DNA from: Nonlabens sp.
Lineage (GTDB): Bacteria > Bacteroidota > Bacteroidia > Flavobacteriales > Flavobacteriaceae
Length of the DNA stretch: 64,000 bases
NCBI GenBank assembly: GCA_020630715.1
Contig: JAHDIQ010000004.1
Location: forward strand, 1-64,000
Direction of reading: 5' to 3'
The position numbers and the translations under genes are program-made. This document shows positions 31,441 to 34,583 of the stretch, in pieces (within the stretch, counting starts at the first letter, position 1; each line of letters begins with the position of its first letter). The notes under the pieces are model-generated. The model did no database searches. It had not been told where the DNA came from and was given only the letters and a program-made list of their open reading frames with translations.

Positions 31441-31786
31441 TTATAGGGAATAATTGTTTACTATTAATATAGCCTAAATGTCGGAATTTTTTAACTTATG
31501 TTATGTTATGTTAATCTAAAGATTAAAAAAAAACTTATTGATCACTATTGATTCTTAAATCATGTAAAAATGGGTTAGTTAATTGATATTTCGTATTTGT
31601 TAGAATAATTCTTTATTTGGATAAGACGTATGGATGGGTAACAGTTCATGGATGATGTTTTTGACTAAATTAAAAGGCGAGATAGTAAGCAAGTAATCTG
31701 AATTATTTAAGTTTAAGTTCAAGTTGATTTTCGTTTTATTATTCATCTTGATTATACCTTTACTTTTTTTATCATTAAAAGCTTTC
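31441..31786. other. Intergenic region, nothing recognised
   Basis: A 346-nt AT-rich stretch between the divergent histidine kinase and DUF6642 genes. It contains TTATGTTATGTTA direct repeats near 31496-31512. I see no convincing ORF, hairpin terminator or TAnnTTTG element. The minus-strand 64-residue ORF here is low-complexity. Confidence 0.5.
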
Positions 31787-32374
31787 ATGAGCAAACTAGA
31801 AATCCCTATTACCGAGGTTGAAAATTTTATTTATTGTCTTGAGGTCGTTCCTGATGCAACGGTGGATCAAACGACAGAGATCGTGATCATTCTAGAAGAC
31901 ATGGTAGCACAACAAAACATTACCAGTATTTACAAAGCCTGCGATACGGTAGAAGGACTAGAAGATAGTATCAATCATTTGCTTTATGATGATCATAATT
32001 TTAAGGATTACGAGATTATTTATCTGGTGTTACCTGGAGAAGCAAATACTATTTTAATCAATGGTTATTACTACAGCATCCAGGAAATCGCCGAACTTTT
32101 TGAAGGGAAAATGGATGGAAAAGTGATCCATTTTGCTAATAAAAAAGTCCTAGATCTTACCGACGAGGAATCGCAATACTTCCTAGACGTTACTGGCGCT
32201 CGTGCTATTTCTGGTTATGGTGTGCCATCGCCACAATCTACTAGTACATACACGATAGATCGTGTGTTTTTCAGTCTGTTTTATGAGAATGATGATTTAA
32301 AAGAAGTCGTAGAGCGACTATTTTATAAGCAGTATCAATTGTGTAAGTTGATGGATTTTAGGTTGTATTATTAG
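31787..32374 (+). CDS. DUF6642-like protein
   Basis: About 195 residues from ATG (MSKLEIPITEVENFIYCLEV). The ORF-track start is a TTG 63 nt earlier and adds an isolated hydrophobic segment; either could be right. The core has alternating strands and helices (DYEIIYLVLPGEANTI, DGKVIHFANKKVLDL, FLDVTGARAISGYG) that resemble DUF6642, a Bacteroidota family of unknown function. No catalytic residues are evident. It is monocistronic and followed by a short hairpin. Confidence 0.6.
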   Translation: MSKLEIPITEVENFIYCLEVVPDATVDQTTEIVIILEDMVAQQNITSIYKACDTVEGLEDSINHLLYDDHNFKDYEIIYLVLPGEANTILINGYYYSIQEIAELFEGKMDGKVIHFANKKVLDLTDEESQYFLDVTGARAISGYGVPSPQSTSTYTIDRVFFSLFYENDDLKEVVERLFYKQYQLCKLMDFRLYY

Positions 32375-32390: not shown

Positions 32391-32483
32391 GCAGTACTCT
32401 ATTTTAATTAGCTGCCAAATTAAATAGATCTAGGAATAAAAAAAGCGCTCCGTCGCGGGAGGCTTTGGAGAGCATAAGTGGAG

Positions 32484-32512
32484 TAGGAGCGAAAGAGTTC
32501 GAACTTTTTGAA
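32484..32512. other. Sequence resembling the tmRNA 3' end; possible attachment-site remnant
   Basis: GTGGAGTAGGAG followed by TTCGAACT resembles the 3' end of the tmRNA gene read on the plus strand (GTGGAGTCGGAG...TTCGAACT at about 34187-34209), with 5 extra bases between the two blocks. The hipBST operon lies exactly between the two. I treat this as a weak candidate for an old att duplication; chance similarity is possible. Confidence 0.3.
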
Positions 32513-32550: not shown

Positions 32551-33498
32551 TTAAACATCAGCATTCAGTCTTTTATACCTTTCTTGTAAAATGTTGATGT
32601 AGTTAGTCTTCATTTCAGAGGATAAAAATGACGCCTGAATTAATTTGAAAGCTTTAGGACTATTTTTATTGAATCTTGAGAAAACGCCTTCAATTTGCTT
32701 TTTATTAAGTCCCAATTGGATACCAAATTCTTCGAAATTAGATTTAGTAATTTTTTTCTTTTTACCTAATAGACTTAACGCTAATTCCTCAGGATCCTCT
32801 GGATTTACTATAGTGACGTTAAGTAAATCATAAGCAGGAGATAATGCCCACCCATAATTCATTTTAATCATTGCGAAATTTTTAAGGTGCATATCATTAT
32901 TTCCAGTAATGAAGGAGAATACGGTAAGTTCAAAAAGGTATAACTTATCTAAAAGTGTGTTGCTGGTATATTTTCCTAGCGCTGTGCCAACACGTTCCAT
33001 CGAACTTTTGTATTTATCAAAAGCCTCAGTAATTTGAAACATATCAAGCATGTGTATTTTAGAACCATCGGGATTTCTATCGATACGTTTTGTTATGTAC
33101 GATAGTTCTCCTGATTTTAAACGTATTAAAGATGATGGAACAACATTAATTCCGTATGCTTGTGCTATTCGCATTGTTAGATGTTCGTTTTCTGGCATTT
33201 CAGCAAAGGCACTATTAGGTGGTTTAAATATATAATTTCCACCTAAAGCTCCTACCACAGTAAGTCTATGTTTTCTATCTTCTTGTTTATCATTAAATAG
33301 ACTCATAGATAACTTAGGTTGTACTCCTGGCACGGATATGCTTCTTAATACGACGTCCTTTGCGAGTTTATGCATTTCATCTAAAGAGTAGTTAAGTTCG
33401 GGAACTTCTTCAGTACCAAAAAAATCTAAAGCACAGAGCTTATGAAAATCGTTTCCTTGACCTATTTCCTTATAGCAATAGAGACAGTTATTCATCAT
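32551..33498 (-). CDS. hipT: HipT-like serine/threonine kinase toxin
   Basis: 315 residues carrying the HipA kinase core without the N-terminal subdomain 1, which is encoded separately by the upstream gene. It opens with a zinc-ribbon-like CLYCYKEIGQGNDFHKLC. RSISVPGVQPKLS follows, with the S-I-S motif (S53/S55) that is autophosphorylated in HipT, then the nucleotide-binding lysine region YIFKPP. The catalytic loop is GNNDMHLKNF and the metal motif is AYDLLN. HipA-type kinases inactivate aminoacyl-tRNA synthetases and cause growth arrest. The target here is unknown. It overlaps the hipS-like gene by 11 nt. Confidence 0.85.
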   Translation of the reverse strand: MMNNCLYCYKEIGQGNDFHKLCALDFFGTEEVPELNYSLDEMHKLAKDVVLRSISVPGVQPKLSMSLFNDKQEDRKHRLTVVGALGGNYIFKPPNSAFAEMPENEHLTMRIAQAYGINVVPSSLIRLKSGELSYITKRIDRNPDGSKIHMLDMFQITEAFDKYKSSMERVGTALGKYTSNTLLDKLYLFELTVFSFITGNNDMHLKNFAMIKMNYGWALSPAYDLLNVTIVNPEDPEELALSLLGKKKKITKSNFEEFGIQLGLNKKQIEGVFSRFNKNSPKAFKLIQASFLSSEMKTNYINILQERYKRLNADV

Positions 33499-33823
33499 CT
33501 TGATTCATTATAGATTCTACGCTCACGGCTCCAATACAGTTTTTACAACAAGCTAATAATAAACCCATTCTGTCATTAGGATTAATTTTCCAATTTTTAG
33601 TTGCTATATCTAGTAACCAACCTTCTGGGATAAGACCTTCAAAAAATGGGAATAGCCTATTTTCTTTATACAATGTATCATTAACAGGCATACTAAATGT
33701 TATAAAGGATTCAGGATAATTGGCTATATAGTCTTCGTTATATTGATAGGTATAATATCCATCATCTGTTTCTGTTAGTATTCCTGCAAGAATAGTGTTA
33801 TAAAAAATTTTAGCCTGTCTCAT
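33488..33823 (-). CDS. hipS: HipS-like antitoxin (HipA N-terminal subdomain)
   Basis: 111 residues corresponding to the N-terminal subdomain 1 of HipA (Couple_hipA). Motifs are AGILTETDDGYYTYQY, ITFSMPV, LFPFFEGLIPEGWLL and LACCKNCIGAV. In the E. coli O127 HipBST system this separate small protein, not HipB, neutralises the kinase. The same three-gene architecture here suggests the same role. It starts 6 nt after the XRE gene stop and overlaps hipT by 11 nt. The CCKNC cysteines are unusual at a position where many relatives have GDCxGA-type residues. Confidence 0.8.
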   Translation of the reverse strand: MRQAKIFYNTILAGILTETDDGYYTYQYNEDYIANYPESFITFSMPVNDTLYKENRLFPFFEGLIPEGWLLDIATKNWKINPNDRMGLLLACCKNCIGAVSVESIMNQDDE

Positions 33824-33829
33824 TTATTA

Positions 33830-34030
33830 TCATTTGTTTATAATGGGAGCTGCAATAAGTTGATGTCCAAACATTTTTAAAACTAGGTTTACTTTCTCCA
33901 TATTTAGATTGGTTTTTCCTTGTTCAATTTTTCTAACTACTGTTAATGCGACACCAGTGCGTTCAGCAAATTCTTCCTGCGTTAAGCCTACGGCTTTCCT
34001 TTTAGTTTTGACTAATTGTGCTAAATTCAT
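33830..34030 (-). CDS. hipB: HipB-like XRE-family DNA-binding protein
   Basis: About 66 residues from MNLAQLVKTKRKAVGLTQEEF. The ORF-track start adds 17 residues that would have to be read through the operator and promoter. The XRE helix-turn-helix is complete (LTQEEFAERTGVALTVVRKIEQGKTN). As in hip operons it should bind operator repeats and repress the operon, in complex with the HipS/HipT proteins. Two identical-arm palindromes flank its -7 element. Confidence 0.88.
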   Translation of the reverse strand: MNLAQLVKTKRKAVGLTQEEFAERTGVALTVVRKIEQGKTNLNMEKVNLVLKMFGHQLIAAPIINK

Positions 34031-34052
34031 TTTATATGTATTTAGATATAAA
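34031..34052. promoter_or_regulatory. HipB operator candidate O1
   Basis: TTTATAT-N8-ATATAAA, a perfect inverted repeat ending at the base before the hipB ATG. The arms and 8-nt spacer are identical to those at 34111-34132. The N8 spacer also matches the E. coli hip operator design (TATCC-N8-GGATA). Confidence 0.65.
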
Positions 34053-34059
34053 TATCTTA

Positions 34060-34067
34060 CAAAGATA
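34060..34067 (-). promoter_or_regulatory. -7 element of the hipBST operon
   Basis: TATCTTTG matches TAnnTTTG 30 nt before the hipB ATG. It lies between the two operator candidates, so bound HipB would block it from both sides. Confidence 0.65.
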
Positions 34068-34110
34068 GCAATTATATGCAATTAAATATAATATAAAGTT
34101 ATTTTCACTT

Positions 34111-34132
34111 TTTATATGTTTAAAGATATAAA
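34111..34132. promoter_or_regulatory. HipB operator candidate O2
   Basis: The second TTTATAT-N8-ATATAAA palindrome, 80 bp upstream of O1 (about 7.6 helical turns). Confidence 0.6.
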
Positions 34133-34186: not shown

Positions 34187-34187
34187 G

Positions 34188-34583
34188 TGGAGTCGGAGAG
34201 ATTCGAACTCTCGTCCAAACGAGCGACTCAATCGCTTTCTACATGTTTAGTTTCTAATTAATTTCAGTCGTTGCACCGGTCAGAAACTACCAAAACAACG
34301 CTTGTCTTTACTTAAATTTCTCCTCAACATCAAAGCCCTATTGAGGATAGATTTACTTTTACGAAATCTCATAATCAGTCGCCGTAAATCAAGGCTTCTG
34401 AGAGATTTCCTGCTTGTCTACCTAGTAGACCGAGGCATTATCCTACTGTAATTCAGATTATGCAGCTAGGGCGTAGTTATTCTCGCCGTTTAAAAAAGTT
34501 GAAAAATGAGATTTAAGAGCTGTTTCCCAGCGCTCTACATGCTTACTATTAACTCGGTCTCGCTGTCAATACCAGTCGACCCC
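34188..34583 (-). ncRNA. ssrA: Transfer-messenger RNA
   Basis: A 396-nt tmRNA that rescues stalled ribosomes with SmpB. The 5' end GGGGTCGACTGG pairs with the 3' CGACTCC to form the tRNA-like acceptor stem. The T-arm GGTTCGAATCTCTC-type sequence is near the 3' end. The tag reading frame at 34487-34458 encodes G-E-N-N-Y-A-L-A-A-stop (resume codon GGC), the kind of tag seen in Bacteroidota. No CCA is encoded. A strong hairpin terminator follows. Confidence 0.93.

Follow-up and report, generated by a model that had tools for sequence, protein, structure and literature searches.

The window, a 64,000-nucleotide stretch of a Nonlabens sp. genome, carries on its minus strand a hip operon of adjacent and overlapping ORFs in the order hipB-hipS-hipT. 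The first gene, hipB (33833..34030), encodes a 66-aa HTH_3 protein (Pfam HTH_3, 1.7e-11) with the recognition helix GVALTVVRKIEQ; hipS (33488..33823) encodes a 111-aa protein resembling the HipA N-terminus (Couple_hipA, Pfam 8.8e-23), and hipT (32551..33498) encodes a 315-aa HipA_C kinase (Pfam 4.9e-43; PDB 7vkb/8ezr, E ~3e-53). The domains are split as in HipBST systems, with PF13657 (Couple_hipA) in hipS and PF07804 (HipA_C) in hipT alone. The closest solved structure to the window HipT is Legionella HipT (7vkb, 8ezr), with which the kinase motifs SVPGVQPKLS (Gly-rich), GNNDMHLKN, and SPAYDLLN align.

The operon lies directly downstream of a tmRNA gene (ssrA, 34187-34583), and ssrA is a common integration site. 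One other Nonlabens genome has a close copy of hipB (L086); what stands at the equivalent place there is just a broken fragment resembling the 3' part of a tmRNA. A fragment resembling a tRNA/tmRNA 3' end, GTGGAGTAGGAGCGAAAGAGTTCGAAC, follows hipT in the window (32478-32504); similar fragments flank the hip genes of L086, where an apparent second HipA-like gene is found next door. It is possible that these fragments are cassette boundaries. A duplicated tmRNA 3' end marking the limits of an island was rejected, since only the degenerate tRNA-like fragment and no clean repeat was present. A gene for a DUF6642 protein (31724-32374) is convergent with hipT.

Three palindromes, all on the minus strand, surround the hipB promoter. 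O1 (34031..34052) and O3 (34111..34132) are exact copies of TTTATAT-N8-ATATAAA, whereas O2 (34071..34092) is a perfect palindrome with slightly different arms, ATTATAT-N8-ATATAAT. A Bacteroidota -7 element, TATCTTTG (consensus TAnnTTTG; 34060..34067, read from 34067 to 34060 on the minus strand) lies between O2 and O1. O1 occupies the stretch between this box and the hipB start codon and abuts the ATG (34030-34028); O2 adjoins the box on its upstream side, over the expected -33 region, and O3 is upstream of the promoter. No -33 TTG was seen at the hipB promoter of the window. The initial annotation had described twin operators with identical 7-bp arms and an N8 spacer, one of them touching the start codon, with a -7 element between them. 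Both palindromes and the element are exactly as described, but the pair is in fact a triple, as O2 had been overlooked. The start-to-start steps are 40 and 40 bp, and O2 is therefore exactly midway, giving the array a period of 40 bp.

In 5,000 dinucleotide shuffles of the region, none produced two perfect palindromes with the same arms or three at 40 bp, which rules out a chance origin of the array. The 2.98 Mb genome (17 contigs) has no exact match to TTTATAT-N8-ATATAAA other than O1 and O3, so a wider HipB regulon built on this exact site was also ruled out.

To follow the array among relatives, one HipT scan of GTDB genomes was used. It yielded 80 loci at 61-89% identity, and HipB could be placed in 79; the genomes belong to Flavobacteriales, Cytophagales, Bacteroidales, and Sphingobacteriales, apart from a few MAGs that carry a Chlorobiota or Delongbacteria label. 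A position weight matrix learned without any spacing constraint found the triple array again in 74 of the 77 relatives with sufficient upstream sequence. Counting the window, 71 loci had three sites; another five had four, and in three of these the fourth is a true copy at 39-40 bp. These loci (class A) share ancestry and their counts are not independent events; 143 of the 154 successive spacings are exactly 40 bp, seven are 39, and four are 41, and four further short spacings, left outside the 154, are overlapping secondary matches of the matrix. The class A consensus is TTATAY-N6-RCATATAA, with arms TATATG/CATATA. O1 mostly runs into the start codon (CATATAATG), and column conservation in 66 aligned loci places TATATTTG at a fixed position between O2 and O1. 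For the O3-O2 spacer, pairwise identity averages 0.39, where composition alone predicts 0.36 and the operators reach 0.76-0.84; it is thus the length of the spacer, not its sequence, that is held. Across the same loci, the hipB-to-hipT distance takes 19 values.

More distant systems were sampled through 60 loci taken from 396 Bacteroidota genomes. Three classes of operator could be distinguished. In class A the HipB recognition helix is GVALTVIRKIE. Class B has the helix GVGLRFVRDLE and sites TATACC-N6-GGTATA, spaced at 40 bp (33 steps) or 41 bp (32 steps). Class C has the helix GVGKTVVFDIE and sites TTACYG-N6-CRGTAA at 70-73 bp, with a mode of 71; the Legionella adelaidensis locus belongs here by helix, arms, and spacing (~71 bp). 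In the HipT tree, classes A and C each form a single group with 100/100 support, and A arises within B. Operator type follows this tree, and the position of A within B means that the arm sequences were replaced on the way from B to A with the 40-bp period left intact. The difference between the two periods (71 - 40 = 31 bp) corresponds to about three helical turns.

Blind scans of bacterial genomes with the arm patterns alone, left the spacing free over a 31-bp range. Class A pairs turned up in 5 of the 396 Bacteroidota genomes scanned; for classes B and C the scans covered 386 genomes and recovered pairs in 13 and 8 of them, respectively. Spacings were all 40 bp in A, 39-41 in B, and near 71 in C. 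Every locus was at a hipB gene or a hipB remnant except one (L404 in G320, 1536-1593), a class B pair where no hipB was found and whose neighbors resemble, by eye, an AbiE-type toxin-antitoxin pair. Arrays were kept beside orphan or decayed hipB genes (L091, L092, L096, L403). Among them, L092 (G125) and L091 (G216) are orphan hipB genes with operator arrays where hipS and hipT were not found, and L096 (G125, 1501-1900) is a decaying hipBST locus, in which a three-site array is followed by an inverted-repeat element that has inserted there and by a hipB interrupted by an in-frame stop. The proposal that the palindromes are HipB operators thus gains from their recurrence upstream of hipB in the 74 relatives, from an arm class that follows the HipB/HipT clade, and from their persistence beside orphan or broken hipB in scans of the phylum. 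The search of other Bacteroidota hip operons for N8 palindromes suggested with it found them present and did not refute it.

Known hip systems share some of these features. In EMSA, the HipB of Legionella binds three 18-nt operators separated by even gaps of 53 bp (PMC10653801), with which the L. adelaidensis locus agrees. As in the window, the L. pneumophila array consists of three evenly spaced sites upstream of hipB in a HipBST operon; however, its period is ~71 bp (18 + 53) instead of 40, and the arms, TTACYG-N6-CRGTAA as taken from the L. adelaidensis locus, go with another HipB recognition helix and differ from those of the window. The L. pneumophila HipBST operators belong to class C. 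In E. coli K-12, HipB binds its operators (PMC3376134), and, as the initial annotation had stated, these have the N8 spacer with other arms: TATCC-N8-GGATA against TATAT-N8-ATATA in the window, both in an 18-bp frame. Although several sites surround the promoter in both, the K-12 array has four at uneven steps of 28/39/28 bp, and it serves a two-gene operon, hipBA, with a fused HipA instead of the three-gene hipBST. What is conserved is the 40-bp spacing between sites rather than N8 alone. E. coli O127:H6 HipBST has the same gene order as the window; its HipT is only distantly related (7ab3-5, E ~1e-16), the operon is reported to lack the Legionella operator motifs, and its HipB represses its own promoter (PMC10627512).

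The same sites occur in viral records. IMG/VR was scanned with the arm patterns of each class and free spacing; the records are mostly fragments without host assignment. Class A arms gave at least 120 stretches, and of the 80 loci read, 62 had a spacing of exactly 40 bp and another 10 one of 39 or 41 bp. Class B gave 90 stretches (of 80 loci, 62 at 40-41 bp and 14 at 27), and class C gave 22, with 17 at 69-72 bp. The E. coli-type pattern TATCC-N8-GGATA gave at least 120, and 61 of 80 loci were at 28 bp and 16 at 27, compared with 28 bp in K-12 hipBA. Controls with permuted or scrambled arms returned only 0, 4, 1, and 7 stretches with scattered spacings, compared with 22 to at least 120 for the real arms. 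The loci with HipB-class operator pairs are L168-L247, L291-L370, L381-L402, and L417-L496. They are related by descent, and the class A pairs fall into 35 groups at 75% identity. The patterns left the inner N6 bases of the viral sites free, and these bases fit the cellular model of their own class best. The 27-bp TATACC-N6-GGTATA pairs (L292, L294, L300, L304, and others), in part a single phage lineage with recurring neighbors, were set aside as a class. Two viral contigs, 3300036886_000258 (L341/L401) and 3300005613_000002 (L331/L389), each combine a class B pair with a class C-like one.

The viral elements are pairs, with a third site absent in 60 of 62 class A and 59 of 61 class B cases, and they are mostly intergenic. 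Their neighbors include terminase, endolysin, tail, and head-maturation genes, and two of the neighboring proteins have relatives in named phages, including those of Flavobacterium, Cellulophaga, Polaribacter, and Bacteroides; Flavobacterium phage 11b has no such operator array. Some E. coli-type pairs are beside genes that look by eye like lysis or HNH/terminase genes, and others, in phages, have a replication endonuclease gene on one side and a dinI-like gene on the other. Neither hipB, hipS, nor hipT was present in any of the 80 class A viral loci read, and the class B loci read lacked hip genes in all cases but L340, which has a full hipBST. One class C locus had a HipB-like HTH nearby, and the E. 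coli-type pairs had none within 700 bp. The possibility that the phage arrays are misassigned hip loci was ruled out by this absence of hip genes. For classes A-C, operators of a phage HTH_3 repressor were rejected too, as 92 of the 100 records, several of them longer than 100 kb, had no HTH_3; PF01381 was found in the other eight, in three over the family cut-off. Promoter function was discarded given the lack of TAnnTTTG between class A sites and of any orientation preference.

Phage records that carry the same site pairs without hipB make it conceivable that the palindromes are operators of another host regulator, in an array common to an unrelated regulon. We regard this as improbable. The arrays found blindly in bacteria are, with one exception, at hipB loci or remnants, the arm class changes together with the HipB recognition helix, and the E. 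coli-type viral pairs match the HipB consensus known from experiments as well as the spacing found in K-12. Common ancestry alone, preserving a spacing that has no function, would agree with the fact that all class A loci form one clade, but it is slightly less probable still: the O3-O2 spacer keeps its length at near-random identity, class B has a 40-41 bp period with other arms, and phage pairs with unrelated spacers show the same spacing. It is most unlikely that the palindromes are RNA hairpins of the 5' UTR or simply AT-rich low-complexity DNA, even though the DNA here is AT-rich and O1 probably falls within the leader, since O2 and O3 precede the -7 box, arms permuted without a change in composition show no enrichment, and shuffles never yield the array.

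Our analysis established the array, its 40-bp period, the promoter element, and the tracking of the HipB and HipT clades. We conclude with considerable confidence that the three sites are the operators through which the HipBST toxin-antitoxin operon regulates itself; that the window HipB binds them cooperatively and represses the operon is what we infer. The uneven steps of K-12 hipBA and the missing -33 TTG speak against this reading. HipB dimers would sit on three operators of 18-22 bp exactly 40 bp apart, with O2 covering the -33 region, O1 the likely transcription start up to the start codon, and O3 further upstream. Occupation of O1 and O2 would shut off the TAnnTTTG promoter. A strict period kept while the sequence between the sites drifts suggests that protein complexes on adjacent operators touch, and they would do so at a fixed distance and helical phase. 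E. coli HipA dimerizes within HipA/HipB/operator complexes, and the hipA7 variant is thought to weaken this dimerization (PMC7029023); HipS is the counterpart of the part of HipA involved, but the interface residues differ (PMC6581861). Contacts between neighboring complexes would probably be made through HipS/HipT, like the HipA-HipA contacts on E. coli hipBA.

The phage pairs are probably binding sites of HipB-class proteins, and judging from sequence, they are best read as putative phage-borne HipB decoys or scaffolds. Extra operator copies can capture a repressor, a titration by decoy operators. The phage elements are similar in principle, but they are paired with a class-specific spacing, which points to a scaffold more than to a lone decoy. 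HipB operator DNA slows the degradation of HipB by Lon in vitro (PMC3376134), and a different type of HipA-family kinase, HipAD, protects against phage (PMC13092281, PMC12548924); considered together, these observations suggest that a phage pair could stabilize the antitoxin and park the toxin in a silent DNA-bound assembly. We tentatively propose, at somewhat less than even odds, that the intergenic pairs in phages of several bacterial groups are a DNA-encoded countermeasure, matched to the HipB class of each host in both sequence and exact spacing, which would dock two neighboring HipBA or HipBST complexes, shield the antitoxin from proteolysis, and keep the kinase toxin silent or titrate HipB during infection. 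Alternatively, a pair could titrate the repressor or place a phage gene under the host HipB. In the E. coli class, temperate-phage repressors are possible readers; many of these records are apparently prophages of isolate genomes, maybe with repressors of their own, and a phage reader is therefore less well excluded there. The open-access papers searched contained no description of HipB operator pairs carried by phages.

Bacteria that diverged deeply have kept the geometry of the hip promoter to the exact base pair, even as the operators changed in sequence. Contact between complexes on the DNA is likely a conserved principle of HipBST control, which spacing mutants could probe. If our reading of the phage pairs is true, they open the disputed contribution of Hip kinases to phage defense to a direct test by means of a single element of 46-60 bp.
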